IMG/VR virus record: IMGVR_UViG_3300037486_000467
Span: 19,641-83,640 of that record
Strand: one strand, 5' to 3'
Length of the DNA stretch: 64,000 nt
Origin: a virus
The position numbers were made by a program, and so were the translations under genes. The notes beneath the pieces were generated by a model, which saw nothing but the letters and a program-made list of their open reading frames with translations, was not told the origin of the DNA and did not search any database. The first letter of the stretch is position 1; each line of letters opens with the position of its first letter. Positions 2-24,711 of the stretch are shown piece after piece.

Positions 2-199
2 TATTTGTTAACTATTGGCGCAGATATACATCATAACGGAGAAGTTGCATTACGTAATGCAGCAGTTATGAATCATATTGACACGGTAACTCATCTAATA
101 AAAAGGGGCGCAAATGTTGATAAAGCAATAAATAACGCAATATCTGAATCTACTAAAATAATGTTAACAAAAGCAAAAAAACTATGTAGAACAAAATGA
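2..199 (+). CDS. Ankyrin-repeat protein, C-terminal part (5' end outside window)
   Basis: The frame is open from the left edge, so only about the last 65 residues are visible. They read as ankyrin repeats: a 'LLTIGADIH...ALRNAAVMNHIDTVTHLIKRGANVDKAI' pattern with the usual helix-turn-helix spacing and G-A-[DN] turns. Ankyrin repeats normally mediate protein-protein contact; the partner is unknown. The stop overlaps the next start in an ATGA arrangement, so it belongs to the same operon as the leader-bearing genes that follow. A second ankyrin protein lies at 2689-3222 and carries the DMGIG leader, so this one may carry it too, outside the window. Confidence 0.7.
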   Translation, partial: YLLTIGADIHHNGEVALRNAAVMNHIDTVTHLIKRGANVDKAINNAISESTKIMLTKAKKLCRTK

Positions 200-627
200 G
201 ATTAGTTCCAGAACATATATACGAAAAGTTTAGCGAAGAGGGCGATCCTATACGCAATATGGGCATCGGGTCAAAATGGGTGCGACTTAAACCCGGAGAA
301 AATATAATAAGACCGAAAAAATTAATGTATATGAATAATGTAGTAGGTCAGAATCATGTTCGCACTGATGGATGTCAATTAGATCTTGATATAAATGATG
401 ATTTTAAATACAGAGTTAATATAGACTATCATAGTATTGTGATGATGGTTAAAAACAAAAAGAATGGAAATCTATACATAGAAGCTATACCTCTTGGTTC
501 AAAAGATCGATGTGAATCATATGTTAAAACTGGTGTAATTAAATATCATTTATGGAAAAAAGAATATGATTGGTTTTATAAAGAAGCTCCAATTTCATTT
601 TGGGAAGATTATTTTGATGTTGTATAA
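196..627 (+). CDS. Small protein with capsid-targeting-like leader and DMGIG motif
   Basis: This 143-residue protein begins with the leader MRLVPEHIYE followed by KFSEEGDPIRNMGIG. The leader resembles the ten-residue capsid-targeting sequence of T4 internal protein III, with a possible prohead-protease site (I-Y-E) after residue 10. The body (residues 26-143) has no domain I recognise; it looks like a compact alpha/beta fold rich in Tyr, Lys and Asp. It overlaps the upstream ankyrin gene by ATGA and is followed 9 bases later by a gene with a nearly identical leader. I infer that it is packaged into the head; the function of the body is unknown. Confidence 0.8.
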   Translation: MRLVPEHIYEKFSEEGDPIRNMGIGSKWVRLKPGENIIRPKKLMYMNNVVGQNHVRTDGCQLDLDINDDFKYRVNIDYHSIVMMVKNKKNGNLYIEAIPLGSKDRCESYVKTGVIKYHLWKKEYDWFYKEAPISFWEDYFDVV

Positions 628-636
628 AGAAGCGCG

Positions 637-1347
637 ATGAGATTAGTTCCAGAACATATATACGAAAAGTTTAGTGAAAATAGCGATCCTATACGCGATA
701 TGGGCATCGGAATATTTAGACAAAGAATATTTGATGATGCTAATACTGCAATTGAATTTATGTTGAATGTTCTGCCCACTATTCTTAAAACTGACGAAAT
801 ACCTGACGATATAATTGTTTCAAATGATAGAATAGATTATCCAGCTTGGAGTTTCAATGATAAATATGCTCAAACTATAGTAAAATATATTGCAAGGTAC
901 GTTAACTCTCACGCTAATAATTTAGAATTCAAAACAAAAGTAGTGTGGGAATTAGTATCAAATTTACACAAAAAGGGATATCCTGGAAACGTAAAACAGA
1001 ATGATAATATAGATGAGAAGTTTGTTGAAGATAGCGATCCTATAGTTGATATGGGAATTGGATTGTACAAAAGTAAAGTAAATTTAAATTCTGAAAAAGA
1101 ATTCTTTCAATATATCTTATGGATAATACCTAAGATACTCGAAACTGATGTTATTCCTAAAGATATCTTAAGTAAGACTAATAATGCTAGGCATAGATCA
1201 TCAATTAGTAGTGGATATTTTAATGAAATTAATCTATACTTGGAAGAGTATGTTTCATATAAAGGCATATCAATGGCGCTAACGAAATGCGAAATGTTTT
1301 GTTGGAATAGCATAGTTGGCACTTTTTTAAAAAAACAGGGATATTAA
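637..1347 (+). CDS. Two-module DMGIG protein (candidate polyprotein)
   Basis: This 236-residue protein contains two homologous modules. The first starts with MRLVPEHIYE then KFSENSDPIRDMGIG; the second starts near residue 124 with N-I-D-E then KFVEDSDPIVDMGIG. The bodies are related to each other: 'LNVLPTILKTDEIPDDI' in the first matches 'LWIIPKILETDVIPKDI' in the second. Each module is preceded by an (I/L)xE tripeptide, the T4 prohead-protease type of site, so cleavage would yield two similar mature proteins. The first 38 bases are identical to the start of the gene at 196. The next gene starts immediately after the stop. The function of the bodies is unknown. Confidence 0.8.
   Translation: MRLVPEHIYEKFSENSDPIRDMGIGIFRQRIFDDANTAIEFMLNVLPTILKTDEIPDDIIVSNDRIDYPAWSFNDKYAQTIVKYIARYVNSHANNLEFKTKVVWELVSNLHKKGYPGNVKQNDNIDEKFVEDSDPIVDMGIGLYKSKVNLNSEKEFFQYILWIIPKILETDVIPKDILSKTNNARHRSSISSGYFNEINLYLEEYVSYKGISMALTKCEMFCWNSIVGTFLKKQGY
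1006..1062 (+). repeat. Internal DMGIG module start
   Basis: Codes for N-I-D-E then KFVEDSDPIVDMGIG inside the gene at 637; marks a candidate cleavage point between two homologous modules. Confidence 0.75.
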
Positions 1348-1920
1348 ATGAAATTAGTTAAAGAACATATAAACGAAAAGTTTAGCGAAGATAGTGATCC
1401 CATTAGTGATATGGGTATTGGTAAACTTTCTTTAAAAGAAATTAGAAAAATTCTTAGAAATGTTAAGCAAAAATTTAAAGAACTTTTGCCTACTGATCAG
1501 ATAAGAGTTGAAATGTATTCATATTTTGAAGAAGACTTAGACGTTTATGAAGTTACGTTTAAACTTAAATCTGGTTATCATCTTCAAGCAACACTTTTTG
1601 GATCGCAAAGGGGTGTTGATAAATGGCATGAAGTGAATGCTGAAAGATTAAAATCTGCGAATATTCATTCAACACTTCCCAAACGTATTGGCTGGGCGGT
1701 GTATAGATATTATTCTTCTAATAATAAAGCATACTTTGTTGAATTAGAAAACTATGATGAATTAATAAAAGATATGATTAAATGTACGTTTTCTGGAGAC
1801 TTTTTCGATGGTATGATAAATAAGGAAACTGCGTTACGAGATAGATTAGCAAAAAAATTATCTAATGTTCAAATATCTATTGATTCAACAAAAATTTTAA
1901 AACAAGTTTTTTCAGAATGA
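1348..1920 (+). CDS. Small protein with capsid-targeting-like leader and DMGIG motif
   Basis: This 190-residue protein starts MKLVKEHINE and continues KFSEDSDPISDMGIG, the clearest version of the shared leader. A candidate cleavage site (I-N-E) lies after residue 10. The rest is charged and partly helical, with no recognised family. The start codon directly follows the previous stop, and the stop overlaps the next start (ATGA), so translation is probably coupled along the cluster. The leader suggests packaging in the capsid; the role of the mature part is not known. Confidence 0.8.
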   Translation: MKLVKEHINEKFSEDSDPISDMGIGKLSLKEIRKILRNVKQKFKELLPTDQIRVEMYSYFEEDLDVYEVTFKLKSGYHLQATLFGSQRGVDKWHEVNAERLKSANIHSTLPKRIGWAVYRYYSSNNKAYFVELENYDELIKDMIKCTFSGDFFDGMINKETALRDRLAKKLSNVQISIDSTKILKQVFSE

Positions 1921-2684
1921 AAAGAGTTAAAGAATATCTTGTTGAAAAGTTTACTGAAGATTCTGATCCTATTAGCGATATGGGAATTGGAATAGTATCT
2001 AAATTGAATGAAAAATTACCAGAATTAATATTAAAAGCTGACAAACAATATCTTCTTTGGTCTGTAGCAATAAGCAATAATGAAATAACTTTTCATTTTG
2101 ATCATGCAAGACTTAGTACACACAAGGAATTTAGATCTGAAAAAATACTTTTACATACTGTAAAAAAAATTATTAATGATTTACATTTAAATACAGTTTT
2201 TTCAGATATTAAATTAAGCCCTCTTAAAATACAAAATGATGCGTATGGTAATTTTTCACGCGCACCAAAAGTTATTGGAAAAATAAATAAAGAGTTTCAA
2301 AGATATTTAAAAACAGAAGAAGATATTTTTTTAAATAGAAGTGCGTTGAATGATTATATTAATGAAAAATTTATTGAGAATTCTGATCCGATACAAGATA
2401 TGGAAATAGGAAATAGAATTTCATGGGAAACTCTAAAACGTGGAGATGTAATATACAATCTTAATAGAAGTAGCACTGCAATCGTTCAAGATACTTTTAA
2501 AAAAGATGATATTTTATCAATAACATATGTACCCTTTGCGGGTGGTACTATCGAAGAACGCATAGAAATAGCAAAAAATTGGGAAAGATATATTGTTTTT
2601 ATGAATAATACAAAAGAAATGAAAATTTCGGAATGGGAAAAACAATACAAAATTCTTCAACCTTATGAATTTAAAAATAAGTAA
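1917..2684 (+). CDS. Two-module DMGIG protein (candidate polyprotein)
   Basis: Residues 1-25 are MKRVKEYLVE plus KFTEDSDPISDMGIG. A second copy begins near residue 145 (D-Y-I-N-E then KFIENSDPIQDMEIG, with one Gly changed to Glu). The two bodies look unrelated. The second one begins 'WETLKRGDVIYNLN', similar to the first module of the gene at 13645 ('LHNLKRGDIIKVKYN'), so modules have moved between genes. (I/L)xE tripeptides (L-V-E, I-N-E) precede both motifs. Function unknown; candidate internal protein precursor of 255 residues. Confidence 0.78.
   Translation: MKRVKEYLVEKFTEDSDPISDMGIGIVSKLNEKLPELILKADKQYLLWSVAISNNEITFHFDHARLSTHKEFRSEKILLHTVKKIINDLHLNTVFSDIKLSPLKIQNDAYGNFSRAPKVIGKINKEFQRYLKTEEDIFLNRSALNDYINEKFIENSDPIQDMEIGNRISWETLKRGDVIYNLNRSSTAIVQDTFKKDDILSITYVPFAGGTIEERIEIAKNWERYIVFMNNTKEMKISEWEKQYKILQPYEFKNK
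2349..2411 (+). repeat. Internal DMGIG module start
   Basis: Codes for N-D-Y-I-N-E then KFIENSDPIQDMEIG inside the gene at 1917; one Gly of the motif is Glu. Confidence 0.75.
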
Positions 2685-2688
2685 TTCA

Positions 2689-3222
2689 ATGAAAATTATT
2701 AATGAAAAATTTACAGATAATGATACTGATGCATTACAAGATATGGGCATCGGAATAACTACTATAATGACTAAATGGTTTGAAGAAGAATTAAAAATAA
2801 AACAACCAAAGCCTGATGATGCATTAGTAATTTGTGCTAGAAACGGAAAACTTGAATTTGTTCAATATTTAGTTCAACATGGAGCAAAGGTAAAAAGAAA
2901 TGATTCTGAATGTCTTCAACAAGCAGCCGCAAATAATCATATAGAAGTAGTAAAATATTTATTAAGTAAAAAATCTAAAGCAGACGGAAATGATAGTTTT
3001 GGAATGAGACAAGCCGCAAGGAATGGTAGTTATGAAATGACTAAACTTTTACTTGATGCAGGAGCAGATCCGAATGCTAAAAAAGGATTTGCGCTAAAAA
3101 TGGCAAAATTATATGGACTCAAAGAAATAGTTAAATTACTTAAACAGTATGGCGCAGTTGAAGATGTTCCGCCTATAGTAAAAGATAGTATTGCTAATGA
3201 TGTACCCAATACAGAATTTTAG
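2689..3222 (+). CDS. Ankyrin-repeat protein with DMGIG leader
   Basis: I place the start at 2689 because the sequence there, MKIINE then KFTDNDTDALQDMGIG, matches the shared leader; an in-frame ATG at 2665 would add eight residues inside the previous gene. After the leader come about four ankyrin repeats ('DALVICARNGKLEFVQYLVQHGAKV', 'CLQQAAANNHIEVVKYLLSKK' and so on). Ankyrin repeats bind proteins, so a packaged ankyrin protein could bind a host target soon after injection; that is inference. It closes the left cluster and is followed by a structural gene. Confidence 0.82.
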   Translation: MKIINEKFTDNDTDALQDMGIGITTIMTKWFEEELKIKQPKPDDALVICARNGKLEFVQYLVQHGAKVKRNDSECLQQAAANNHIEVVKYLLSKKSKADGNDSFGMRQAARNGSYEMTKLLLDAGADPNAKKGFALKMAKLYGLKEIVKLLKQYGAVEDVPPIVKDSIANDVPNTEF

Positions 3223-3270
3223 TGTAAATGTTATAAAATTAATATGATGAATAAATAAAATAAAAAATAA

Positions 3271-4611
3271 ATGGCATTACATAATCGTTATAATAATGAG
3301 GATATTTTATCAAGAGCAGTTGTTGCTGGAATATTAAACATTCTAAACAACAAAATTACTTATGAACAAGTGTGGAGTAATGAACAAATAGAAACTGTAA
3401 TAATTCCTTGGTATTATAATATGTCCGGTGATGAAAGATTTATGCAAGATTTTTATACACATTATGCTGATTGTCTTCCGCCAAGACCGGCTGATGGAAA
3501 TTTTGATATGATACCAAGAGGAATCATTTCATATACAGGATCAGTTATAGATTCAGCCCGTACAACTTCTCGTTATGTTCAGGGTAATTATCTTAAGGAT
3601 GTTGGAGGGCAATTGCAAACATATCGATCTTTTCTTTATTATATTCCTTTAAATATAAATTTTGATTGTGAAATATGGTTAGATACACAAATAACTGGAT
3701 TAAAAGTTGAACAAGCAATTCGCGAATTATTTTATAAAACAGTTACTTTTTATGTTTATTATAAAGGAATGAGATTGGGGTGTACAGCAGGATTTCCTGA
3801 AGATATTGCATTAGAAAAAAATATTCAATATTCTTTTGAAACCAGCAATAGCACAGTTGTAAAAATTAAATTTTCTATACAAATTGAAGCTTATCAACCT
3901 GTGTTTGATCCTACAACAGAAGTAAACGCCAATGAATACATAAGAGCATTAGGATATAGAATTTTTAATAATAAAGAAAAAAGCGATGGCATTATTACAA
4001 TAACTTCGCCACTTGATTCATCAGAAAATTCTCCGTTAGTTGTGCCTAAAGGATATTCTTTTTTAATAGAATGGGATTATACAAAAGAAAGCGCAATAAT
4101 AAATAAAGTTGACGTTTATTGGATGTTACACGGAGAAGATATTAAACATGTCATAGAACGTTTTGTTCTCAATAATGAATATTATGTATGGAATATTCCA
4201 GAGACTTTCACTAATTTTAAACATCCTACTGTAATATGGAATGAAGTAAATGGTATTTCAATTAATAGAAAGCCTATTATTAAGATAACTCCAAATACTT
4301 CTACAAATGAAATAGATGAAAGTTCATTTATGGTAGTTGATAGTGGATATTTTTTCTCTCCGGAGCCAGACATTTCAGTAGGAGCAATACTAGAAATGAA
4401 AAATATACAAGGAAGAATAGTTTATTCTGGAGATGCATCTCTATACTTTAATTTAAAAGATAATAGAATAGATGAAGATGATCCAGTTGTATTGCCGTAT
4501 GGTCCAATTGTATTTCCGGGAGAAGTAGATTATAAAATAATAGATATACAAATTGCTAATAGTGTTAATAATGATGTATATGATGTTATCCAGAACATAA
4601 AAATTGTCTAA
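3271..4611 (+). CDS. T4 gp15-like tail sheath stabilisation protein
   Basis: This 446-residue protein shows the pattern of T4 gp15, which caps the tail and locks the sheath to the neck. The central segment 'FLYYIPLNINFDCEIW' followed by 'VEQAIRELFYKTVTFYVYYKG' corresponds to the gp15 stretch around its 'ELSIFTRYEDDMFQIVEQIL', and 'KIKFSIQIEAYQPVFDP' matches the gp15 'EWSLTFEVNGWMYPP' strand. It is longer than gp15 (272 residues): the extra C-terminal 200 residues, from about residue 245, look like beta-sandwich domains. The assignment is by eye. A gp14-like neck protein occurs in the right block (49312-50988), so the neck genes are split. Confidence 0.6.
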   Translation: MALHNRYNNEDILSRAVVAGILNILNNKITYEQVWSNEQIETVIIPWYYNMSGDERFMQDFYTHYADCLPPRPADGNFDMIPRGIISYTGSVIDSARTTSRYVQGNYLKDVGGQLQTYRSFLYYIPLNINFDCEIWLDTQITGLKVEQAIRELFYKTVTFYVYYKGMRLGCTAGFPEDIALEKNIQYSFETSNSTVVKIKFSIQIEAYQPVFDPTTEVNANEYIRALGYRIFNNKEKSDGIITITSPLDSSENSPLVVPKGYSFLIEWDYTKESAIINKVDVYWMLHGEDIKHVIERFVLNNEYYVWNIPETFTNFKHPTVIWNEVNGISINRKPIIKITPNTSTNEIDESSFMVVDSGYFFSPEPDISVGAILEMKNIQGRIVYSGDASLYFNLKDNRIDEDDPVVLPYGPIVFPGEVDYKIIDIQIANSVNNDVYDVIQNIKIV

Positions 4612-4631
4612 AAAAAACAAAAACTAATAAA

Positions 4632-4644
4632 TATATAAAATAAA
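4632..4644 (+). promoter_or_regulatory. Late-promoter-like element TATATAAAATAAA
   Basis: This exact 13-base element recurs upstream of many virion genes here. It resembles the T4 late -10 box (TATAAATA) read by gp55, and a gp55-like factor is encoded at 8249. It sits 33 bases before the ATG of the 753-residue protein. Confidence 0.45.
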
Positions 4645-4677
4645 ATAAAAGTTATAAAAATTAAATAATACGTGACT

Positions 4678-6933: not shown

Positions 6934-6939
6934 AAATTT

Positions 6940-7578: not shown

Positions 7579-7581
7579 CAT

Positions 7582-10776: not shown

Positions 10777-12570
10777 ATGGCCGGCTTCGGACTAAGAAAC
10801 CTCGATAAAAGATCAGCATCTTTTTTAGATAATATACAACGTAACATACGTTATCTCAGCATCCTTGGGATGAAATGGGATGAAAAAGTAATAAAACAAT
10901 CTCGTGCCATAGGTATTAGTGAAATGACTGAAGACTCTATGTATAGTCTTTATGGTCAACATCAACTATATTCAGGCGCAGATATTAATCAAAAAGAATT
11001 TATTGCATTCTTTGATAAAGAATATCCTACAAGAAGAGATTTCTTGAGAAGATTTGCAATGAATGGAGAAATTGAACATGTTATAGAAGTTATAGCAGAT
11101 GAAACTATCATTCAAGATGATGCTAATTTCTTTGCTTATCCCAATACTAAGAAATTAAAATCTGTTCTTAAAGCTGAAAAAGCAAAAGAAATTGTAGATG
11201 ATCTTAATGAATCATTCAAAAAGGTTTATTATGCCTTTGGCTTTAATAGTGGCCATGATGGATGGCATTATGCTAAAAAATTCTTAATTGATGGTTTCCT
11301 TTCTTTTGAAATTATTTATGACGGTGAAGGTTCAGATCCAGCTAAACATATATTAGGATTTAAAGAACTTGATCCAGTTACTCTTGAGCCTGAAATGAGA
11401 AAAGACGAAGAAGGAAATGAGTATAGAATGTGGATACAATTTAGGGGAGATTCAGAAAAACAAAGAGAATTAGTTGACGGAAATATAATTTATATCTCTT
11501 GGGCAAGAGGAAATTTTATATCTCGTCTATCATATGTTGAAAGACTTGTTAGAGCATTCAACATGCTTAGAACAATGGAGAATTCACGTATTATTTGGAA
11601 TGTTATGAATTCTCAACAACGTATGAAAATAGTTGTTCCTATTGGAACTCAATCAGAGGTTAAAGCAAGAACTCGTCTTTCAGAACTTCGAGCTATGTAT
11701 AAAGAAGATGTTACAATTGATTATCAAAGTGGAGAAGTTACAATAAATGGTACGCCAAATTTCTCTTTCGCTAAACAGTATATTTTTCCTGTAAAAGATG
11801 GCCAACAAGTTGATGTAAATTCATTTGCTCCAGCAGGTTGGGATTTGTCAGGAACAATGGCTCTCGATTATTTTTGGAAAAGATTTATTATTGAAACAAA
11901 AGTTCCTAAAGATAGATTTACAACAACAGGAGAAGAAGGCGGTCAGGGCAGCAATTGGTCTAGTGGTGGTGAAGGTATTGCTAGAGAAGAAATTAGGTTT
12001 GCTTATTTTATTAATCGTATTCGTTCTATTCTTCAAGAAATATTGTTAAAGCCTACATGGATACAATTTTGTTTAAAACATCCTGAATTTGCACAAGATA
12101 AAGCATTACGAGGCGCTATAGGTCTTGAATTTGTTGAAGAAAACTTATTTACAGAAGCCAAAAAACGTGATATAGCAGAAAAGGGTGCTGCAATAGTTAC
12201 TACACTTATGGGCATAAATCAACCCGAAGTTGATAATGAAGGTGTAGTAAATAATGACGGAATGTACTTTGATCCTAAATTCTTAGTTGAAAAGTATATG
12301 GATTATACTGATGAAGATCTTAAACTTAATGAAAAATATAAGAGAGAAAGAAGAGAACAATTAACTCGTATTGCAGATAGCATCAAGCGTATCAATGCAA
12401 TTAAAGGCACAGGAGAAGAAGGAGAAGCTGGCGCAGGTGGTGACATGACTGGCTTAGGAGGAATGGAAATGGGCGGTGGCGAAATAGCCGGAGGAGCTCC
12501 AACAGAACCTGGCGCAGAAGGCGAAACCGGTGAAGAAGAAGCGGGCGGCACAACTGAATTAGGAGTTTAA
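10777..12570 (+). CDS. Portal protein, T4 gp20-like
   Basis: This 597-residue protein has the gp20-family core: 'FDKEYPTRRDFLRRFAMNGEIEHVIEVIADETI', 'GFKELDPVTLEPE', 'LVDGNIIYISWARGNFISRLSYVERLVRAFNMLRTMENSRIIWNVMNSQQRMKI', and 'RFTTTGEEGGQGSNWSSGGEGIAREEIRFAYFINRIRSIL'. The portal is the dodecameric ring through which DNA is packaged and ejected. It is longer than T4 gp20 (524 residues), mainly through a C-terminal Gly/Glu/Met-rich tail from about residue 545. A late-type promoter precedes it and small membrane proteins follow. Confidence 0.9.
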   Translation: MAGFGLRNLDKRSASFLDNIQRNIRYLSILGMKWDEKVIKQSRAIGISEMTEDSMYSLYGQHQLYSGADINQKEFIAFFDKEYPTRRDFLRRFAMNGEIEHVIEVIADETIIQDDANFFAYPNTKKLKSVLKAEKAKEIVDDLNESFKKVYYAFGFNSGHDGWHYAKKFLIDGFLSFEIIYDGEGSDPAKHILGFKELDPVTLEPEMRKDEEGNEYRMWIQFRGDSEKQRELVDGNIIYISWARGNFISRLSYVERLVRAFNMLRTMENSRIIWNVMNSQQRMKIVVPIGTQSEVKARTRLSELRAMYKEDVTIDYQSGEVTINGTPNFSFAKQYIFPVKDGQQVDVNSFAPAGWDLSGTMALDYFWKRFIIETKVPKDRFTTTGEEGGQGSNWSSGGEGIAREEIRFAYFINRIRSILQEILLKPTWIQFCLKHPEFAQDKALRGAIGLEFVEENLFTEAKKRDIAEKGAAIVTTLMGINQPEVDNEGVVNNDGMYFDPKFLVEKYMDYTDEDLKLNEKYKRERREQLTRIADSIKRINAIKGTGEEGEAGAGGDMTGLGGMEMGGGEIAGGAPTEPGAEGETGEEEAGGTTELGV

Positions 12571-13247: not shown

Positions 13248-13320
13248 CATTAGATTAACAAATATATAATATCAAATTATGTAATTTATATTATATTGTT
13301 ATATAGTTCTTTAAAATATT

Positions 13321-13588
13321 GAGAAATGCTCTACGGAGCTAGTTATAGAGTAGGTATGCAACACCGCGGTTCGACCCCGCGCACCTCCACAAAAGTTTGT
13401 AGCGAAATCTCGGTCTCTTTTCAAAAAGCCGAACTTCAATAGGGGGTGACCTGGCTTTGACTGCATATTGAGGGTGTTAATGAACGTCTCAACACGTCAA
13501 ATAAACGACGCAAACATTTATGAAATGCAAATGGCTGCTTAAGAAGCACTCATTTACAGGAAACTGGCCGGTCGCCTAAGGTACCGGC
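13321..13588 (+). ncRNA. ssrA: Circularly permuted (two-piece) tmRNA gene
   Basis: tmRNA rescues stalled ribosomes and tags the nascent protein for degradation. Here the 3' half precedes the 5' half. The acceptor piece (about 13321-13391) has a T arm, CGCGG / CCGCG (13365-13369 / 13377-13381) with loop TTCGACC, then CACCTCC (13382-13388) and discriminator A. After a spacer of about 50 bases, the coding piece starts GGGGGTG (13442-13448). GGGGGUG pairs with CACCUCC over 7 bp, including G3-U70, the alanine identity pair. TGCATA (13462-13467) pairs with TATGCA (13355-13360) as helix 2. The tag frame lies at 13510-13542, and a hairpin (AAATG...CATTT) encloses its stop codon. CCA is not fully encoded. 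This matches the layout of the permuted tmRNAs known from alphaproteobacteria and some cyanobacteria and betaproteobacteria. Confidence 0.88.
13510..13542 (+). CDS. tmRNA proteolysis-tag reading frame
   Basis: From the resume codon GCA, the frame reads ANIYEMQMAA and then TAA. The Ala-Asn start is shared with the E. coli tag and the final Ala-Ala is the usual protease-recognition end, but the centre is unlike the common NYALAA form. Confidence 0.8.
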   Translation, partial: ANIYEMQMAA

Positions 13589-13595
13589 TTTTTTT
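13567..13595 (+). terminator. Rho-independent terminator of the tmRNA gene
   Basis: GCCGGT (13567-13572) pairs with ACCGGC (13583-13588), with an extra CC/GG pairing in the loop, followed by seven T. The stem is much richer in G and C than the surroundings. Confidence 0.85.
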
Positions 13596-13619
13596 ATCTT
13601 TCGTTATTAGCAACGGGGA

Positions 13620-13632
13620 TATATAAATAAAA
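13620..13632 (+). promoter_or_regulatory. Late-promoter-like element TATATAAATAAAA
   Basis: It contains an exact T4 late box (TATAAATA) and lies 12 bases before the start of the four-module DMGIG gene. Confidence 0.5.
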
Positions 13633-13644
13633 TCATACAATTAA

Positions 13645-15111
13645 ATGCAAGCCAAATTAGTGCATGAAGATTTAAATGAAAAATTTACTGATGAATCTGA
13701 TCCTATAAAAGATTTAGGAATAGGAGAAGGCACTCTTCATAATTTAAAACGGGGTGATATAATAAAAGTAAAATATAATTGTAGTATTGATAAAAATAAA
13801 AGATTGGTATTTTCATTTAAGTTGGCTACATATTTTAAACCTACAATGGATTGGATATATAAAGGCTTATATTTAATAGTAGATAAAGTAGAATATAAAG
13901 ATGATAAAGTTTTTATTATAGGTTTTAACGGTAGTAATAATTTAGTTGTAGCTAAAGATCGAAAACGTGTACTTTTTATTGAATATCCTGATTTTCAACC
14001 GCCTATTCCTAAAGGAGATTTTTGGGTTTTTGAAAAAAATATTGACAAAATGTTAGAATTTGTTAAAGATAATAAAATAAAAGAATCTTTAAATGAAAAA
14101 TTCCAAGATATCTCGGATCCCATTAAAGATATGGGAATTGGATATCCCCAATGTCTTGTAGGAACAAAAATATACATACCATTTGGTTATGAATTAAGTG
14201 TATATAATAAACTATATAAAAGATCTAACTCTGAAAATGAAAATGGAAAGATTTGGACAATTAACTCTGCTATTAGAGAAGGCGAATTTATTAAAGTTAC
14301 GTTAAATAATTTTACTGTATTTTTAACCGAAAAACAACTTAAGTTATTTTCAAAAAAATATCAAAATTTAATAAAGGAAGATTTAAATGAAAAATTTACA
14401 GAAGAATCTGATCCAATCCACGATTTAGGCATAGGGTATTTTGAAATTGTTAAAAAACCTCGTAATGTATTTTATTTCATTGAAAGAGGCCCAAATTATG
14501 TTGAAGGTGGAAAGCCAACTACATACGTGTATTCTATGGATAAAGGAAACGTTTACAGAACACACCCTAATTTATATGCTCACCAAGAATTAAGATCAAA
14601 TTCTAACGCCTTTAATAAAGGAAATACTGATAAAATGGCTATTCCAAATGATTTTAATAAAGCATATGCATTCATAATGGATCATTATATTAAGAAGAGA
14701 AAAAGAGCTAGATTAAGAGAATCTTTAAATGAAAAATTTACAGAAACATCTGATGCAATTGTAGATATGGGTATAGGATTTAATCCTCAAAAAACCAAAA
14801 CTAAATCATTTAAGATACTATTATTCATTAATTCAAGAGGAGAAGATGGCGCATCTTTATTAGAAATACAGCATTTTATTTATGTAGAATTAAACGGAGG
14901 TTCTGAACAACAATTTTGGGAAACTAAAGAAGACAGGTATTGGCCCGGTAAGAAACGAATAACTCGAGGATATTGGTGTACAAATTTATTAGGATCACAT
15001 AGATGGCCGGGATTACTTCATAAATATTGCAAAAAGAATGAAAAGGGTAAATGGGTTATTAAAAGGTGGCCTAAGTTTGAAGAAAATCTTTATGATTTCG
15101 ACAAAAAATAA
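13645..15111 (+). CDS. Four-module DMGIG polyprotein
   Basis: This 488-residue protein contains four copies of the shared motif. Residues 1-27 are MQAKLVHEDLNE plus KFTDESDPIKDLGIG. Internal copies follow near residues 144 (KESLNE then KFQDISDPIKDMGIG), 243 (KEDLNE then KFTEESDPIHDLGIG) and 356 (RESLNE then KFTETSDAIVDMGIG). Each is preceded by L-N-E, a T4 prohead-protease type site. The four bodies of about 75-120 residues look different from each other; the first shares 'NLKRGDII' with a module at 1917-2684. Cleavage would release four small proteins, each starting KF. It has its own late-type promoter and follows the tmRNA gene. Function of the bodies is unknown. Confidence 0.8.
   Translation: MQAKLVHEDLNEKFTDESDPIKDLGIGEGTLHNLKRGDIIKVKYNCSIDKNKRLVFSFKLATYFKPTMDWIYKGLYLIVDKVEYKDDKVFIIGFNGSNNLVVAKDRKRVLFIEYPDFQPPIPKGDFWVFEKNIDKMLEFVKDNKIKESLNEKFQDISDPIKDMGIGYPQCLVGTKIYIPFGYELSVYNKLYKRSNSENENGKIWTINSAIREGEFIKVTLNNFTVFLTEKQLKLFSKKYQNLIKEDLNEKFTEESDPIHDLGIGYFEIVKKPRNVFYFIERGPNYVEGGKPTTYVYSMDKGNVYRTHPNLYAHQELRSNSNAFNKGNTDKMAIPNDFNKAYAFIMDHYIKKRKRARLRESLNEKFTETSDAIVDMGIGFNPQKTKTKSFKILLFINSRGEDGASLLEIQHFIYVELNGGSEQQFWETKEDRYWPGKKRITRGYWCTNLLGSHRWPGLLHKYCKKNEKGKWVIKRWPKFEENLYDFDKK
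14074..14142 (+). repeat. Internal DMGIG module start
   Basis: Codes for KIKESLNE then KFQDISDPIKDMGIG, second module of the gene at 13645. Confidence 0.75.
14371..14436 (+). repeat. Internal DMGIG module start
   Basis: Codes for IKEDLNE then KFTEESDPIHDLGIG, third module of the gene at 13645. Confidence 0.75.
14710..14778 (+). repeat. Internal DMGIG module start
   Basis: Codes for RLRESLNE then KFTETSDAIVDMGIG, fourth module of the gene at 13645. Confidence 0.75.
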
Positions 15112-17143: not shown

Positions 17144-17434
17144 ATGGCAGATCAAATTCCAAACGTAGCAAAAGTAGATGCAACACAGAAAGTTGAAACA
17201 AACGCTTATGTGCCAACTTATAAAATTAAACCAGACTTTAAGAAAGCTCTTCTTCAATCAATTGGAGATAGACCATTTAATGAAATAGCAGGTCTTATTC
17301 AAGCAATTGATGTTGAAGTGATGGATCATCAAACTCTTACACAAATTGTAAATGCTATTGGGCAATTTCCATTCGTAAGAGTAGAGCAACTTATGAAAAA
17401 TATTTCAAATCTTGTTGAACAGGTAATTGAATAA
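17144..17434 (+). CDS. Small phage protein of unknown function (96 aa)
   Basis: The protein is neutral and predicted helical, with 'DFKKALLQSIGDRPFNEIAGLIQAIDVEVMDHQTLTQIVNAIGQFPFVRVEQLMKNI'. The tidy amphipathic helices suggest a small oligomeric structural or chaperone-like protein. No family is recognised. Confidence 0.55.
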   Translation: MADQIPNVAKVDATQKVETNAYVPTYKIKPDFKKALLQSIGDRPFNEIAGLIQAIDVEVMDHQTLTQIVNAIGQFPFVRVEQLMKNISNLVEQVIE

Positions 17435-17465
17435 TCATTTCATTTTTCTTAAACTAATTAATTTT

Positions 17466-18092: not shown

Positions 18093-18094
18093 AG

Positions 18095-18577
18095 ATGAAA
18101 GCAAATGAATGGTTTAAACCTCGAAATTGGGGATGGATTAAAGTTTATCGAGATTTTGAAAATTTTAATGATTGGAAAAAAATTATTAAAAGAGAAGAAA
18201 AAAATGTAGATTCTAAGTTCAATAAATGGAATTTACAACATACAAAATTATACGATATTTTCGTTACAATCTCTTTAGATGAAGAAGATGCGCAATTGCC
18301 AGAAATCATTAAGCGTACAAAAGTATTAGAATCTTTAAATCCTATTAATCGCTATTTAGATGAGGAACTTGGTTTTGCTGAATGCCTTAGTTGTGAGTTC
18401 AATCAATTTGAAGATGATAAAGGTATACCCACATTATCTTATTTAATTGTTTATAGATTCATTTTTAATAAGTTTTCTATAATATGGTTATTAAAATTTA
18501 TTACAATAACGGGAGCATTAACCTATCTTGCTATAAGGCTTGATGATATAATCAAATGGATTTTCAATTCGATATAA
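18095..18577 (+). CDS. Unknown protein with C-terminal membrane helix
   Basis: This 160-residue protein has a Trp-rich N-terminus ('WFKPRNWGWIKVYRDFENFNDW') and a hydrophobic helix near residues 127-147 ('SIIWLLKFITITGALTYLAI'). It overlaps the nuclease gene downstream by 22 bases, indicating coupling. No family is recognised. Confidence 0.5.
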   Translation: MKANEWFKPRNWGWIKVYRDFENFNDWKKIIKREEKNVDSKFNKWNLQHTKLYDIFVTISLDEEDAQLPEIIKRTKVLESLNPINRYLDEELGFAECLSCEFNQFEDDKGIPTLSYLIVYRFIFNKFSIIWLLKFITITGALTYLAIRLDDIIKWIFNSI

Positions 18578-19332
18578 ATAATATAAAATGGATAAAGGGT
18601 TCTCGTGGTTTGCCGGAATGTGTGTATAAGATAAAAATTCCAAGTGTATCTACGATTTTAAGTGAAATGATTCCCGATCCTGAATATGATGAATTTGTTG
18701 CAGCAGTAGGAAAAGAAAGAGCAGATAAAATAATGACTTCTGCTGGTAATAGGGGTTCATCTATGCATACTTTTATAGAAACGTTTATAGCTAAATACTC
18801 ATCTAGTAAAGATGTTTCAGAAGCATTGAAATACACTCAAGAAGAAAGTCCTAAATTATTAGAAATAGAAAATATACCAAAAGATAAAATTGAAGAAGGC
18901 AGAAGTCTTTTTTATAAATTTTATTATTCAGATTATTCTAATAGATATTTAGATACTCTAGCTATAGAATTAGGAGTATATTCTCCCTCTTTATTTTATC
19001 GAGGTAAATTAGATATTTTATATAAAGATAAACTATTTGGACTTTCATTAACTGATTTTAAATCTTCTAATGGTAAAATTAAAAATGGAAGTACTAAAGA
19101 ATTAAAATATCGATATCAATTAGGAGGATATGCAAACTGTATTGATGAAATGTATAAAGAGCAAAATGTTATTATTAATAGAGCTTCAATATTATGCGTA
19201 GATAAAAATAATGATATTTTGCAAGAAATAGAGTGTGTTGGAAAAGAATTACAAGAATACAAAGAAAAGTTTAAAGTGTTAGTAATTGAGTATCATAAAA
19301 AAAATAATACAGAATATTTATTAAGTAATTGA
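18556..19332 (+). CDS. PD-(D/E)XK exonuclease (RecB/MGME1-like)
   Basis: This 258-residue protein shows the order of motifs of PD-(D/E)XK nucleases: 'IPSVSTILSEMIPD', 'GNRGSSMHTFIETFI' (about 56-70), 'FYRGKLDILYKDK' with the catalytic Asp, 'LTDFKSS' (the D/E-x-K strand) and 'YRYQLGGYANCIDEMY', the Q-x3-Y motif of the RecB/MGME1 class. Such enzymes act as single-strand-specific exonucleases in replication or recombination. The start overlaps the preceding gene; the motif order supports the frame. Confidence 0.75.
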   Translation: MDFQFDINNIKWIKGSRGLPECVYKIKIPSVSTILSEMIPDPEYDEFVAAVGKERADKIMTSAGNRGSSMHTFIETFIAKYSSSKDVSEALKYTQEESPKLLEIENIPKDKIEEGRSLFYKFYYSDYSNRYLDTLAIELGVYSPSLFYRGKLDILYKDKLFGLSLTDFKSSNGKIKNGSTKELKYRYQLGGYANCIDEMYKEQNVIINRASILCVDKNNDILQEIECVGKELQEYKEKFKVLVIEYHKKNNTEYLLSN

Positions 19333-19387
19333 TTTTTTAAAACTATTTTTTGTAAATGCCATAAAATATAAAATAATACATAAAAAT

Positions 19388-20011
19388 ATGAAAAAAGAAG
19401 ATGAAAAATCTGCTAGTGTTCTTACTGTAGTAAAAGATAATACAGAAAATACCAAAGAAGTAAATAAGCCTACGCCCGAAGAAGCTGCGCAGTTTAAAGA
19501 AGAATTTGAAAAATCAGCCGAAGCATTTAAAACAACTAAATGGGAAATTAGCGAAAAAGGAAAATTTGGAGCTAACGATGTAGGAATGTTTATAATGGAT
19601 TTTATGAAAAAATTTGCATTTTGGACAAAAACTGGCTGGATGGGAATGCTAAAGATGACCGAAGAATTAAATAAAGCTATGAATTTAGTTGATGAAAATA
19701 CGGGTCTTCAATTAGAATATCAAGCACTTGAATTTTTAGCATATATGTTGTCAAATCCTGGAAATACAGGATTAGATGCAGCTATTGAATTTGAACAAAT
19801 AGCAGATAAATATTCTAAAATTGGAATAGTTATTGGAACAAAACTTGAAGAGGCGCGAAAACAATTAAAAGATCTTCAATATCTTCAAGAAAAATGGGCT
19901 GCTGCTGAACAGGGATATTATCTTGCAGAACTTGAGCCTAAAAAAGAAGAAAAATTAGAAGGAAACGCAGTGGAAATTGATATATCTAAAAAAGAAGAAA
20001 AACCCGAATAA
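19388..20011 (+). CDS. Unknown helical protein (207 aa)
   Basis: The N- and C-termini are Lys/Glu-rich and probably disordered. The middle (about 45-170) is helical, with 'FIMDFMKKFAFWTKTGWMGMLKMTEELNKAMNLV' and 'LEYQALEFLAYMLSNPGNTGLDAAIEFE'. No family is recognised. It is the last gene before a strong terminator. Confidence 0.55.
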   Translation: MKKEDEKSASVLTVVKDNTENTKEVNKPTPEEAAQFKEEFEKSAEAFKTTKWEISEKGKFGANDVGMFIMDFMKKFAFWTKTGWMGMLKMTEELNKAMNLVDENTGLQLEYQALEFLAYMLSNPGNTGLDAAIEFEQIADKYSKIGIVIGTKLEEARKQLKDLQYLQEKWAAAEQGYYLAELEPKKEEKLEGNAVEIDISKKEEKPE

Positions 20012-20031
20012 CCTTTTATATATTTCATTTT

Positions 20032-20058
20032 AAGAGGCCCAAAACTTGGGCCTCTTTT
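20032..20058. terminator. Strong hairpin terminator (possibly bidirectional)
   Basis: AAGAGGCCCAA / TTGGGCCTCTT forms an 11-bp stem with a three-base loop, followed by T on the + strand and preceded by A. It closes the 17,144-20,011 gene group. Confidence 0.85.
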
Positions 20059-20085
20059 GATAATATAAATATAAATATCTAGAGA

Positions 20086-20098
20086 TATATAAAAACAA
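20086..20098 (+). promoter_or_regulatory. Late-promoter-like element TATATAAAAACAA
   Basis: It is preceded by AGAGA, as is the tape-measure promoter on the other strand (GAGATATATAAAATAAA). It lies 12 bases before the next gene. Confidence 0.4.
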
Positions 20099-20110
20099 AA
20101 GACACTAATT

Positions 20111-20455
20111 ATGGCACTTACACCTCAACAATTCTTTGAACGTTATGCTAAATGGCTATTACTTGTATTTATAGCTTTATTTTTATTTAAATCTGTACAA
20201 AGTTGTAATAGAAACATGAAATTAACAATAGATTCAAAAAAATATACACATGAAATCGATTCTTTAAAGACTTTAAACCAAAATTCTTTAGATAGTATCA
20301 AAAAACTTAATTTTGAATTAGAAATTGCATCAGAAAAAGCTAAATCTGCAAATGATAGAGCGGTTGCCGTTCAAAGTGCAGTTGAAAAGATGCGAACAAA
20401 TACAACTATTACTGTTAAAGGTGCAGAACAAATTAAAGACACAACAAAAAGATAA
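20111..20455 (+). CDS. Membrane-anchored coiled-coil protein, spanin-like layout
   Basis: This 114-residue protein has an N-terminal anchor (residues 14-28, 'WLLLVFIALFLFKSV') just before a Cys (QSC), followed by a coiled coil through about residue 95. The layout resembles an inner-membrane spanin. The following gene overlaps its stop (TAATG) but is a zinc protein, not an outer-membrane spanin, so the role remains open. Confidence 0.5.
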   Translation: MALTPQQFFERYAKWLLLVFIALFLFKSVQSCNRNMKLTIDSKKYTHEIDSLKTLNQNSLDSIKKLNFELEIASEKAKSANDRAVAVQSAVEKMRTNTTITVKGAEQIKDTTKR

Positions 20456-20775
20456 TGAATTATAATAAAGAAAATATTTGTTCTTTTTGTGATGGAACCA
20501 AGGGTTGGACATTTATTCATGATAATGATCCTTCTAGAGGTCCTGTTTTTCATCCGTGTTATTGTGAAGATGGAACGCGTGTAGGACAATTAATTAGTGA
20601 TCTCGCAATTCAAAAATTACAGAATGAACAAATATATGATGATTATAATCAACTTCGACAATGGGTGGAAAAAACTTCAACATGCAAAACGTGTAAAGGA
20701 GATCAGTATAGTATTCCAGGCGGAACTCTTTGCTCTGAATGCAGATTGCCCGGATTACAACCATGGGGAGGATAA
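20455..20775 (+). CDS. Zinc-ribbon protein with DnaJ-like Cys pairs
   Basis: This 106-residue protein has an N-terminal CSFCDGTKGW motif with a following C-Y-C, and a C-terminal pair CKTCKGD and CSECRLPG. The C-x2-C-x-G type repeats are like DnaJ or small phage zinc ribbons. They probably bind two zinc ions and act as a small adaptor; the target is unknown. It is translationally coupled to the upstream membrane protein. Confidence 0.6.
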   Translation: MNYNKENICSFCDGTKGWTFIHDNDPSRGPVFHPCYCEDGTRVGQLISDLAIQKLQNEQIYDDYNQLRQWVEKTSTCKTCKGDQYSIPGGTLCSECRLPGLQPWGG

Positions 20776-20795
20776 ATAAATAAAATAAATAAAGA

Positions 20796-22010
20796 ATGAA
20801 ATTAGGAAATCTTAAAATTACGAATAAAGGTCTTTATTGGGGATTGATAATCACCTTTTTCTTGATATACATTTGCGTAGGCTTTGTATCAACATTGCAT
20901 GCTATTACTTTTTTTCAAATGGCAAATACTATGGGACTGGCAGTTCTATTAGCTCTTGCATTTGAAGTTGGTCAAAGCTCAGTATTGTTTTCAATATTAA
21001 TGACAAAAAACAAAGAAAAATTTCTGCCATGGTTTTTAATGGTTCTATTAACAGGATTGCAAATAACCGGTAACGTTTTTTCTTCATTTAAACATATAAT
21101 GACATCAGGAAGTTTAGATTGGCAATATTTTCAAAAATCTATTCTTTTTGGAGTTCAGGCTTCAAATCCTGAAATGTATCAAGTTATAATATCTTGGTTG
21201 CAAGGCGCTCTTTTACCCGTTGTTGCTCTTGGACTTACAGCATTGGTTGCACAAAATATTAATATATTAATTCCGCATGAAGAGGAGGAAAAAAAGCTTA
21301 AAGAAATTATACCCGAAATAGATGAAACGCCTGAAGATTCTCCCGAAACGCCGATGGTTGAAAAAGTAGTTTTTAAATCTCCAGGAATACCTAGAGTTGA
21401 AAAAGGAGGTGAAACAATAAATTTTACACCGGTTGAATCAACTATTGCCTCTGCACTTGGAATAGATGCTGAAGAAGAAATGAAAAATTACAGAGTTGCT
21501 GATTTAGCTGATAAAGAACTAATGAATAATGAACAAGATGATGAATTTGTCGATTCTTATTTGGTTTCACTTCAAGAAGAATCTCCGCAAGAAATAAATG
21601 TATTACCAGAAGAACCTAAAATAGAAGAAAAAAAAACTGATGTAAGAGGAAAAAGGCCTCCACTTAGTATGCGTGAAATTATACAGCAAGTTGCAGATAG
21701 GGGCGGAGCAGGCGATTTAACAAAATTATTAGCTGGAAATATACAGCCAGAGAAAGAAGAACAAGAATTAAATGAAGTAGTTGAATTAAAAAAAGAAAAG
21801 GAATCTTTGCTAAAAGAGGACGTAAAGGTTCCGCAAGAAAACACAAAGTCTCTAAAGAAATTAACAATAAATGACGAAAAACAAAAAAATACTTCTCAAC
21901 TTCAAAAAATTTACGCACAGATAGCAAAAGAACATTTAGATGATGATATAGAAGGCGTAGAAATAATAGATGGCGAAGCTATTCCTAAATCAAACGTAAA
22001 AAAAAAGTAA
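20796..22010 (+). CDS. Multi-pass membrane protein with long cytoplasmic tail
   Basis: This 404-residue protein has about four membrane helices in residues 12-165 ('LYWGLIITFFLIYICVGFV', 'MGLAVLLALAFEVG', 'FLPWFLMVLLTGLQITGNVF', 'GALLPVVALGLTALVA'), then a charged, mostly disordered tail of about 240 residues with the segment 'PLSMREIIQQVADRGGAGDLTKLLAG' that may be folded. I do not recognise the family. It could act in host-membrane remodelling or as a replication or assembly anchor, but nothing decides this. Confidence 0.6.
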   Translation: MKLGNLKITNKGLYWGLIITFFLIYICVGFVSTLHAITFFQMANTMGLAVLLALAFEVGQSSVLFSILMTKNKEKFLPWFLMVLLTGLQITGNVFSSFKHIMTSGSLDWQYFQKSILFGVQASNPEMYQVIISWLQGALLPVVALGLTALVAQNINILIPHEEEEKKLKEIIPEIDETPEDSPETPMVEKVVFKSPGIPRVEKGGETINFTPVESTIASALGIDAEEEMKNYRVADLADKELMNNEQDDEFVDSYLVSLQEESPQEINVLPEEPKIEEKKTDVRGKRPPLSMREIIQQVADRGGAGDLTKLLAGNIQPEKEEQELNEVVELKKEKESLLKEDVKVPQENTKSLKKLTINDEKQKNTSQLQKIYAQIAKEHLDDDIEGVEIIDGEAIPKSNVKKK

Positions 22011-22012
22011 AA

Positions 22013-22078
22013 ATGAAATTAGAAAAATCTGGTATCCATATTAACCCCGGAGAACATCAAAATTTTGATAGAATTTAA
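22013..22078 (+). CDS. Possible 21-residue peptide
   Basis: A short frame, ATG to TAA, reads MKLEKSGIHI then NPGEHQNFDRI. It starts two bases after the previous stop and ends directly before a terminator hairpin. The position suggests it could be translated, but its length gives little statistical support. Confidence 0.25.
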   Translation: MKLEKSGIHINPGEHQNFDRI

Positions 22079-22079
22079 G

Positions 22080-22101
22080 AAGGAGCGTAAGCTCCTTTTT
22101 T
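22080..22101 (+). terminator. Rho-independent terminator
   Basis: AAGGAGC / GCTCCTT with a GTAA loop is followed by T. It separates the membrane-protein group from the lysozyme gene. Confidence 0.8.
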
Positions 22102-22108
22102 ATTGAAA

Positions 22109-22121
22109 TATATAAAATAAA
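22109..22121 (+). promoter_or_regulatory. Late-promoter-like element TATATAAAATAAA
   Basis: An exact copy ends only seven bases before the TTG start of the lysozyme gene, so the message would have a very short leader. Confidence 0.45.
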
Positions 22122-22128
22122 ATAATAG

Positions 22129-23025
22129 TTGAAATTAGTCAGAGAACATATTAATGAAGAACAAATAGACGAAATGTTAATATTTTTAATAAGTTCGCCT
22201 AGTTTAAATGAATCATTAAATGAATCTATAAATTTAGATAAAATAAAAAATATTGTAAATAAAATAAAAGATAAAAGCAAAGCTTTTTATACTATAATAC
22301 AAAAATTCAATGATACAAAAGATGAAAAAATAAAAAACTATTTTGCAATTGTTTTAACAATTTTAGTTTTAAGTTTACCTTCAATAAATATACAGAATCC
22401 AAATATACAAGAAATATCTAATGAAATTTCAAAAAGAAAAACAATTACGCCTTTAGATGTAAATAAAATAATAAATCTACCCATATTTAGTTTAGAGCTT
22501 TCAAAACAAAAATTAATAAAAATAGACAATCCTATAAATATTGAAAAAGCACATATTTCAGAAGATACTAAGCAATTAATAAAAGAACACGAAAAATTAA
22601 AATTAAAAGCATATTCAATTGGCGATGGAATGATTACAATAGGTTGGGGGCATGCTGAACCATTAAATTCTTCTACATATAAAATAGGACATACTATATC
22701 TAAAAAAGAAGCTGATATATTATTTCAAAAGGATTTAAATAAAATAGAAAACGGAGTTAAGCGTATATTTTATCAATGGGAACAAGAAGGAAAGAATATT
22801 AAAATGACTCAAGGAATGTTTGATTCTATGGTGTCTTTAGGATATAATATAGGAATAAGTGGATTAAGAAAAACTGAATTCATACAACATGTTAAAAATA
22901 ATGATATTCTTGCTGCTGCCGAAAAAATAAAAACAACGAAAATAAATTCTAAATTTCCAGGATTAAAAGACAGAAGACAAAAAGAACATGAATTATTCAT
23001 AAAAGATTTAAATTTTAATGAATAA
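22129..23025 (+). CDS. Lysozyme (GH24 type) with capsid-targeting-like leader
   Basis: This 298-residue protein starts at TTG, chosen because MKLVREHINE matches the shared leader. A hydrophobic helix lies at residues 71-87. The C-terminal half is a T4/P22-type lysozyme: 'LIKEHEKLKLKAY' with candidate catalytic Glu155, 'MITIGWGHAE' with Thr170, and a C-terminal 'KFPGLKDRRQKEHELF'. The position of T4 Asp20 is Ile164 and an Asp occurs two residues later (166), so the usual E-8-D/C-5-T spacing is not kept. It may be a virion-carried muralytic enzyme or the lysis endolysin; the leader and membrane helix favour something other than a simple endolysin. Confidence 0.8.
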   Translation: MKLVREHINEEQIDEMLIFLISSPSLNESLNESINLDKIKNIVNKIKDKSKAFYTIIQKFNDTKDEKIKNYFAIVLTILVLSLPSINIQNPNIQEISNEISKRKTITPLDVNKIINLPIFSLELSKQKLIKIDNPINIEKAHISEDTKQLIKEHEKLKLKAYSIGDGMITIGWGHAEPLNSSTYKIGHTISKKEADILFQKDLNKIENGVKRIFYQWEQEGKNIKMTQGMFDSMVSLGYNIGISGLRKTEFIQHVKNNDILAAAEKIKTTKINSKFPGLKDRRQKEHELFIKDLNFNE

Positions 23026-23048
23026 ATAAATAAAATAATTATGTAAAT

Positions 23049-24065
23049 ATGGCAGATTTATTTAATAATACATCCAATGATTATATTAACCCTACTTTAA
23101 ATCCTTGCCCTGGCGCCGGTGATGGTGGTGCATCTGGTACATTTGAATTTTTACCCGGTCAAGAAGTAGGAGTAATATCTGGAAGTGATATTGTAACATC
23201 AATGGGATTAGGAGATATATCTGTACCTGTAGATGGTTGGACTAACCAATCAAAAATATTACAATCAGGAGAAGTAATATTCATTCCTGGATTAACAAAA
23301 GGCATTTCATATAGATATCAAAGTTTTCCGTTTGATGGTTCTGTATTATATACTAATACAAATCACTCATTCTATTTAGCAGTAGATATGTCAATTAATT
23401 ATTATAGAAATTTTAGATACTATGAAGATGCAATACATGCAGAAGCTAATTTAACAAATGGAATAACTATTGAAAATGCTCTACAAATTGCGTTAGATGC
23501 TAAATTAATAAATGTCACTACTACATATGATGCAAGTGGTTTAACATTTATAGGAACTGCCTTAGGATATTCTTATGATATAACTGCATTAGACGTTAGT
23601 CTTTTTCAATATAATTCATTAACAAGAGAAACTTTGGCAGAAGATGCATCAGTTGCAATTCCGGCATTTAAATATCCTAATGGAGCGATGTTGGGATATG
23701 TGTTAAAAGCAACGTATCCTTCAACCGTTGAAGATTATGAATCGTATATCGAAATAAATCACGTACCTGATAGTTTAGTTTATTATGAAGTAAGCACTGG
23801 AGGATGTTATTCAAGATATGAAAAATTAGTTGACGTTGGATTAAATAGTGGTTTGCTTTGTGTAGGTAATACAACTGTAATGAGTGCGGCGGATTATCTT
23901 ACATATGTTGAAGAAAATAGTTTATGGGAAAAAGTAGGAGTTATTAGAATTTGGTTAACTGCGACTGATCCCGATAATTCATTAATTGAAAATTTAATTA
24001 CTGGATTTTATATTTATAATCCACATACATTTCCTGTACAAATATCATATATGATAATATTATAA
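23049..24065 (+). CDS. Probable virion protein of unknown role
   Basis: This 338-residue protein is neutral, beta-rich, and high in Asn, Thr, Tyr and Gly ('GWTNQSKILQSGEVIFIPGLTKGISYRYQSFPFDG'). Its composition fits head-decoration or fibre proteins. It lies between the lysozyme and a leader-bearing repeat protein (1-base gap). No domain is recognised. Confidence 0.55.
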   Translation: MADLFNNTSNDYINPTLNPCPGAGDGGASGTFEFLPGQEVGVISGSDIVTSMGLGDISVPVDGWTNQSKILQSGEVIFIPGLTKGISYRYQSFPFDGSVLYTNTNHSFYLAVDMSINYYRNFRYYEDAIHAEANLTNGITIENALQIALDAKLINVTTTYDASGLTFIGTALGYSYDITALDVSLFQYNSLTRETLAEDASVAIPAFKYPNGAMLGYVLKATYPSTVEDYESYIEINHVPDSLVYYEVSTGGCYSRYEKLVDVGLNSGLLCVGNTTVMSAADYLTYVEENSLWEKVGVIRIWLTATDPDNSLIENLITGFYIYNPHTFPVQISYMIIL

Positions 24066-24066
24066 A

Positions 24067-24711
24067 ATGAAATTAGTAAAGGAACACTTAAATCAATATT
24101 ATTTAAAATTCACAAATACAGGTGATCCTGTACATGATATGGGTATAGGAATTGAATCTCAAATTAAAGATTGGTTAGCTCAATATAATATTCATCAATA
24201 TGCTTTAACTAAGAAATTTTCAATAAATGTATATACTTCTATAGATTTTTCGAATAAATCTATAAAGCAATTTCCTGATTATATAAAATTTAATCATATA
24301 ATAGGAGGATTTCATTGTGAACACAGTGATCTAATTTCATTAAAAGGCGGTCCTTATAGTGTTACTGGATCTTTTCTCGTTCGATATAATAATTTAAAAA
24401 ATTTAATAAATGGGCCAGTTTCGGTTAAAGGTATATATAGTATAAGTTATAATGGAACAGAATCATTAGAAGGTTTAGCTAAATTTATAGAAGGCGCGGT
24501 ATATCTTAGTCATAATAATTTAAAATCATTAGAAGGCGTGCCAAAAATAATTAAAGGCGAATTTGCAATACACGATAATCCAATAAAAACATTAAAATAT
24601 TTTCCTGAAGAAGTAGAGGGAGATGTAACTTTTTCGCCTTCCGATATTATAACAAAAGAGAAAATATTAAATATATGCAAAGTTGGCGGAGAAATAAAAG
24701 AATATAATTAA
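24067..24711 (+). CDS. Leucine-rich-like repeat protein with DMGIG leader
   Basis: This 214-residue protein starts MKLVKEHLNQ YYL and continues KFTNTGDPVHDMGIG; here the (I/L)xE site is changed (L-N-Q). Then 'QIKDWLAQYNIHQYALTKKFSINVYTSIDFSNKSIKQFPDYIKF' leads into about five short leucine-rich-like repeats ('LISLKGGPYSVTGSFLVRYNNLKNL', 'LEGLAKFIEGAVYLSHNNLKSL'), a repeat type common in phages of Bacteroidota. It is a probable protein-interaction payload in the same family of leader-bearing proteins as the ankyrin protein at 2689. Confidence 0.78.
   Translation: MKLVKEHLNQYYLKFTNTGDPVHDMGIGIESQIKDWLAQYNIHQYALTKKFSINVYTSIDFSNKSIKQFPDYIKFNHIIGGFHCEHSDLISLKGGPYSVTGSFLVRYNNLKNLINGPVSVKGIYSISYNGTESLEGLAKFIEGAVYLSHNNLKSLEGVPKIIKGEFAIHDNPIKTLKYFPEEVEGDVTFSPSDIITKEKILNICKVGGEIKEYN

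Follow-up and report, generated by a model that had tools for sequence, protein, structure and literature searches.

A conserved tag behind a predicted cleavage site in an array of diverse small proteins from an uncultured T4-related giant phage

Tagged genes at the tail of a long array

The DNA analysed here, which we call the window, is a stretch of 64,000 nt (positions 19641-83640 of an 83,640-bp IMG/VR record), and its source is an uncultured T4-related giant (jumbo) phage. An earlier reading made from the letters of the window (the sequence-only reading) had reported at least twelve copies of the motif KFxExSDPIxDMGIG in seven genes, with all copies but one lying behind (I/L)xE. A six-frame search confirmed both statements as well as the positions of the genes: there are 12 copies in 7 genes on the + strand and no copy on the - strand, the twelfth being the variant KFTDNDTDALQDMGIG at 2707, and (I/L)xE stands directly before 11 of the 12, the exception being the copy at 24106. 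We refer to the motif as the tag and to what follows it as the payload; each module would then open with a leader or linker whose last residues are (I/L/V)xE, continue with the 15-residue tag specific to the phage, and end in a small folded payload.

The gene at 196..627 (+) holds a single module, in which the leader MRLVPEHIYE precedes the tag KFSEEGDPIRNMGIG at 226 and an uncharacterised payload; a paralogue of this gene lies upstream, at record position 18986. It is followed by a two-module gene (637..1347, +; tags at 667 and 1018), both of whose payloads belong to the largest uncharacterised family (LPxILxTxxIPxDI), and by a one-module gene (1348..1920, +) that opens with MKLVKEHINE and continues with KFSEDSDPISDMGIG at 1378. 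The gene at 1917..2684 (+), which has a 4-nt ATGA overlap at its start, contains two modules with tags at 1947 and 2367, and the payload of the second is a member of the LKxGDI family. The variant tag at 2707 belongs to a one-module gene (2665..3222, +) with an ankyrin-repeat payload. Further along the window, a polyprotein of four modules (13645..15111, +) has tags at 13681, 14098, 14392 and 14734, with LNE before each. Immediately ahead of this four-module gene lies a phage-encoded tmRNA gene (13299-13633; tag peptide DANIYEMQMAA). The gene at 24067..24711 (+), with a leucine-rich-like payload, is the one that holds the exceptional tag copy: MKLVKEHLNQYYL is followed by KF without LxE at the junction, and a VKE is present that ends at residue 6.

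These genes are only the tail end of a tag array. When the motif search was carried to the whole record and to related phages, as the sequence-only reading had proposed, it yielded 58 tags in the full 83.6-kb record, 46 of them within the 19.6 kb preceding the window, and 88 in a 405-kb relative. Most of the record's tags fall in an array of overlapping genes that begins at record base 100, ends near 22,900 and is broken by one untagged helicase-like gene; many neighbours in the array overlap by 4 nt, giving a single tightly overlapping operon. The number of modules per gene ranges from 1 to 7 in this record and reaches 8 in relatives. Stop-codon recoding was considered as the cause of fused versus single modules and was dismissed, as all three stops terminate array genes; it is also contradicted by the many array neighbours that overlap in different frames.

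A profile search of related viral loci returned 455 tag hits, which correspond to 327 distinct modules after de-duplication by payload; the loci include near-duplicate assemblies (3300003860 and 3300027899), so that locus counts are not independent of one another. The bacterial and archaeal genomes of GTDB and the phages of INPHARED gave zero confirmed tag matches, and a search of Lak-C1 and LR756500 found no tag. In the searchable literature "DMGIG" was not found, and, judging from titles and abstracts, the four papers there that treat polyproteins, prohead proteases and phages together do not describe such an array.

Cut site, leader and head genes

The triplet [ILVM]xE immediately precedes the tag (xF) in 312 of the 316 distinct modules that have standard spacing, where composition predicts 1.6%, and 215 of them have the NE form at the cargo junction. 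Most of the modules without a site at the junction have one at a shifted distance; the IYE/ALGF and IHE/AIGF modules have it shifted upstream by three residues and carry Ala at P1'. In the payload interiors [ILV]NE is not significantly depleted (ratio 0.86, z -0.8), leaving no trace of protease avoidance there.

The leader behaves differently from the site. The sequence-only reading had spoken of one shared leader, and at gene starts M-K-L-V-x-E-H is indeed strongly conserved, but the leader is not universal: it is missing from a dozen or so genes of a sister lineage (see below), and in internal modules its conservation falls to 0.5-2 bits per position, with [ILV] N E K F retained (E and F are each present in 29 of 29 internal copies). 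Loss of the leader and retention of the xE site inside polyproteins fits cleavable linkers, on the expectation that between modules a protease site would be needed and a targeting leader would not. Behind the portal gene of the 405-kb relative, a free-standing leadered gene corresponds to the fourth module of the window's polyprotein (14734-15108), the two being 46% identical over 128 residues; sequence inspection places a stand-alone leadered counterpart at the matching position behind the portal gene of a 162-kb relative. This natural experiment, with one module fused here and free elsewhere, supports the cleavable-linker reading, with leader, site and tag as separable elements.

In T4, the cut made by gp21 follows (L/I)xE, and the ten residues at the start of IPIII sufficed for head incorporation (PMC9026906). 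The resemblance of the leader to that targeting sequence, pointed out in the sequence-only reading, holds up on comparison: MKLVREHINE and the IPIII sequence MKTYQEFIAE are equal in length (10) and have M1, K2, E6, I8 and E10 in common. The tagged genes have the leader of about ten residues ending in (L/I)xE that marks T4-type internal proteins bearing a capsid-targeting sequence (CTS).

A T4-type portal protein (gp20) is encoded in the window at 10777..12570 (+) and is 82-85% identical to that of the 405-kb relative. The nearest named phages by portal are the Lak megaphages (about 40%), and close relatives, with portals 81-85% identical, carry the same tag type. A profile search of the window's own record found neither a protease (PF03420) nor a capsid gene (PF07068), probably because the record is a fragment. 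The gp21-like protease that the sequence-only reading had called for is thus missing from the 83.6-kb record; the 405-kb relative and the sister phages do encode one. In the 405-kb relative a Peptidase_S77 domain (PF03420, 57 bits) is fused to a scaffold-like region and lies beside a gp23-type capsid gene; the fusion contains 10 [ILV]NE, against 1.25 expected. Aligned with the T4 protease (5JBL), the motifs GELDHP and SISSR of the S77 domain place a His and a Ser at positions that are Ala in the 5JBL chain and His and Ser in T4 gp21. We take the aligned His and Ser to be the catalytic residues of a gp21-type protease, the Ala positions of 5JBL pointing the same way. The relatives' protease therefore combines the profile match and the conserved His and Ser that define S77 membership.

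The capsid genes show the same kind of site. In the gp23-type protein of the 405-kb relative, HALNE/AAMGG aligns with the T4 maturation cut GSFLTE/AEIGG, and each of the 16 capsid homologues whose N-terminus is complete has LNE or INE at the T4 cut position (HALNE/A,S or HSINE/N). These capsid precursors thus carry (L/I)xE at the T4 position, as is characteristic of gp23-type maturation.

Payloads and tags across lineages

Clustering resolved about 120 payload families, some of them clearly over-split, and 106 unconnected components at E<1e-4. The frequent payloads are ankyrin repeats and leucine-rich-like repeats, and the remainder are almost all uncharacterised. When 138 modules were compared with Pfam, PHROGs and PADLOC, only ankyrin repeats were well supported; none of the 138 had a Pfam or PHROG match to the bodies of T4 IPI, IPII or IPIII. 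Matches to DnaJ, Helicase_C and WG were single and weak and were set aside, as were scattered PADLOC matches. In two structures predicted by AlphaFold2 the tag is disordered and the payload is folded, and a Foldseek search of these two payload models against the PDB returned nothing at E<0.001.

Payloads turn over quickly. Any match in the examined parts of the 405-kb relative was found for 33 of 58, at a median identity of 34%, whereas untagged genes near the portal are 40-88% identical to that relative. Fast turnover of this kind would fit proteins that interact with the host. Payload families also recur in differing combinations.

The codons of the junction (-1 to +1) are biased toward AAC (21/37), GAG (18/56) and AAG (43/54), where the genome prefers AAT, GAA and AAA; elsewhere in the genome, K before F is encoded by AAA 72 times and by AAG 13 times. 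The quick payload turnover, the recurrence of payloads in different combinations and the AAG bias at the junction would each be accommodated if the conserved stretch were mainly a recombination handle, a shared 5' end for payload shuffling whose peptide has little function. We regard this as very improbable. The codons for Pro8, Gly13, Ile14 and Gly15 follow genome usage, and because synonymous codons at most tag positions do so and the residues are fixed, selection appears to act on the protein sequence; moreover, the cut-site triplet is retained despite altered spacing to the tag.

Two sister phages (G020 and G026) carry the tag NFERGxDPKxSMxIG in place of KFxExSDPIxDMGIG. They cluster in the capsid tree (97/95), and their protease is likewise fused to the scaffold, the fusion containing nine [ILV]NE. 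In this lineage Glu lies four residues ahead of F in 67 of 92 distinct modules, 64 of which read [ILVM]xE, and the residue after the site is commonly Ser, Asn, Ala or Val; in roughly a dozen genes the tag stands at the very start, with neither leader nor site ahead of it. One tag type per locus was found in 98 of 99 loci, and the single "mixed" locus proved spurious (an 8.8-bit match). Homologues of 26 of the 90 sister-lineage payloads occur among payloads of the first tag, at up to 51% identity. A third tag wording is present in another relative, where a 1276-aa ankyrin polyprotein (L133, G023:118000-129697) has repeated LLEKFSEESDDLTKDLGIG tags.

Several payload families have multiple paralogues inside the array, as would result from plain tandem duplication of one N-terminally conserved family with no role in delivery. 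We find that account scarcely credible, as the roughly 120 payload families (106 components at the threshold above) have only the tag in common and homologous payloads bear different tags in different phage lineages. That payload families are common to both lineages and the tag follows the phage suggests that the tag is recognised by a phage-specific partner, which moves the focus from leader to tag. Since the leader is missing from some modules and the lineage-specific tag is always present, the tag may be an address label, with leader and cut site as the means of exposing it.

Such a label need not lead to the virion. The tag could recruit proteins made during infection to an intracellular phage hub, with the xE site cut by some other protease or left uncut. 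The payloads are unlike known virion proteins, in the sister lineage some genes carry the tag but neither leader nor site, and the majority of tags in the 405-kb relative lie away from the capsid genes, all of which would suit a hub. We nevertheless judge it unlikely, for it leaves unexplained why the junction has (I/L)NE in common with the capsid maturation site, why the leader is like those of T4 internal proteins, and why tagged genes directly adjoin the portal and protease genes.

Predicted delivery, known systems and untagged neighbours

From sequence comparison and the analogy with T4, we consider it probable that the modules form a head-packaged panel that is cut after Glu by a gp21-type protease and injected with the DNA. 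Modules would enter the prohead during core assembly, where the scaffold-fused gp21-type protease would cleave after Glu, stripping the leader and separating polyproteins into single proteins that start with the tag. The matured proteins would then enter the host along with the DNA and serve there as takeover or anti-defence factors that evolve fast, and the tag might act in docking to scaffold or shell, in packing, or in ejection. Against this reading weigh the lack of protease and capsid genes in the window's own record, the undepleted [ILV]NE of the payload interiors, the sister-lineage genes that open with the tag, the window copy with no LxE at its junction, and the scarcity of payloads with a recognised function. 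The mechanism put forward in the sequence-only reading is plausible and gains comparative support; its stress on the leader has to be revised. A more far-reaching proposal, which we entertain with some doubt, is that the retained tag is a lineage-specific label read by a head or ejection component, such that any bearer would be loaded and injected; this would amount to programmable, polyprotein-fed delivery, with labels mutually exclusive between lineages.

The tagged proteins are like T4 IPI, IPII, IPIII and Alt in their 10-residue leader ending in (I/L)xE (the CTS; PMC9026906), and like the T4 internal proteins in having unrelated bodies behind similar leaders, fast-evolving cargo and a gp21-type protease in the lineage. 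They differ in number (58 to 88 modules here, against a few), in their multi-module polyproteins and in the conserved 15-residue tag that would stay after the predicted cut, and the Pfam and PHROG comparison of 138 modules found no sequence similarity to T4 internal proteins. We do not claim membership of the T4 internal proteins, because no body homology emerged from that comparison and because packaging, cleavage and injection, like the roles of the payloads, are inferred. The best reading is that packaging and processing would resemble those of T4 internal proteins on a far larger scale, with cargo also made as polyproteins and with a label, specific to the lineage, that the cut leaves in place.

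Two other systems offer comparisons. In the accessible text of the reports on SPN3US and phiKZ ejection proteins (PMC5694885, PMC10052503), these phages likewise have many head proteins and a prohead protease that cuts after xxE, and the diverged paralogues gp53 and gp54 have identical N-termini, as in the tagged cargo; they differ in that several propeptides exceed 100 residues and the motif is AxE or SxE, and the same text describes no tag array. Polyvalent proteins, some of them phage-encoded and likely packaged, with processing proposed (Iyer et al. 2017, PMC5512222), also combine several effector-like domains in one polypeptide. They often contain peptidase domains of their own and known enzymes, whereas the proteins described here have repeated cut-site-plus-tag linkers and mostly uncharacterised payloads; of the conflict enzyme domains and in-chain peptidases typical of that class nothing was found, the domain matches being to ankyrin repeats and a few isolated weak ones.

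If the proposed delivery is correct, head cargo would be recognisable from sequence alone among the hundreds of uncharacterised genes of uncultured phages, and the roughly 120 payload families could be listed as candidates for injection. The question of how a large phage loads its numerous internal proteins (by leader, tag or both) would become testable, and the label could serve for packaging chosen proteins into phage heads.

Leader-like starts also occur in the window on genes without a tag. A phage lysozyme (22129..23025, +; TTG start) begins with MKLVREHINE, and its orthologue in the 405-kb relative is without the leader. A MoxR-like AAA ATPase (26662..28320, +) begins with MKKLVPESIEE, a start that is kept in two relatives (three phages in all), and a small protein at 43037..43402 (-) begins with MKKLVSENLNE. 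The ATPase lies next to a metallopeptidase/VWA-like protein (24726-28320 for the pair). On a reading of its sequence, the protein encoded at 28838-30748 appears secreted and right-handed-helix-like, with a C-terminus that resembles a type IX secretion sorting domain and so points to a Bacteroidota host. Inspection further suggested that a 3206-aa protein with numerous repeats inside it (32087-41707) is probably tape-measure-like, and that a 1152-aa protein (54525-57983) joins methyltransferase-like units to a radical-SAM-like part.
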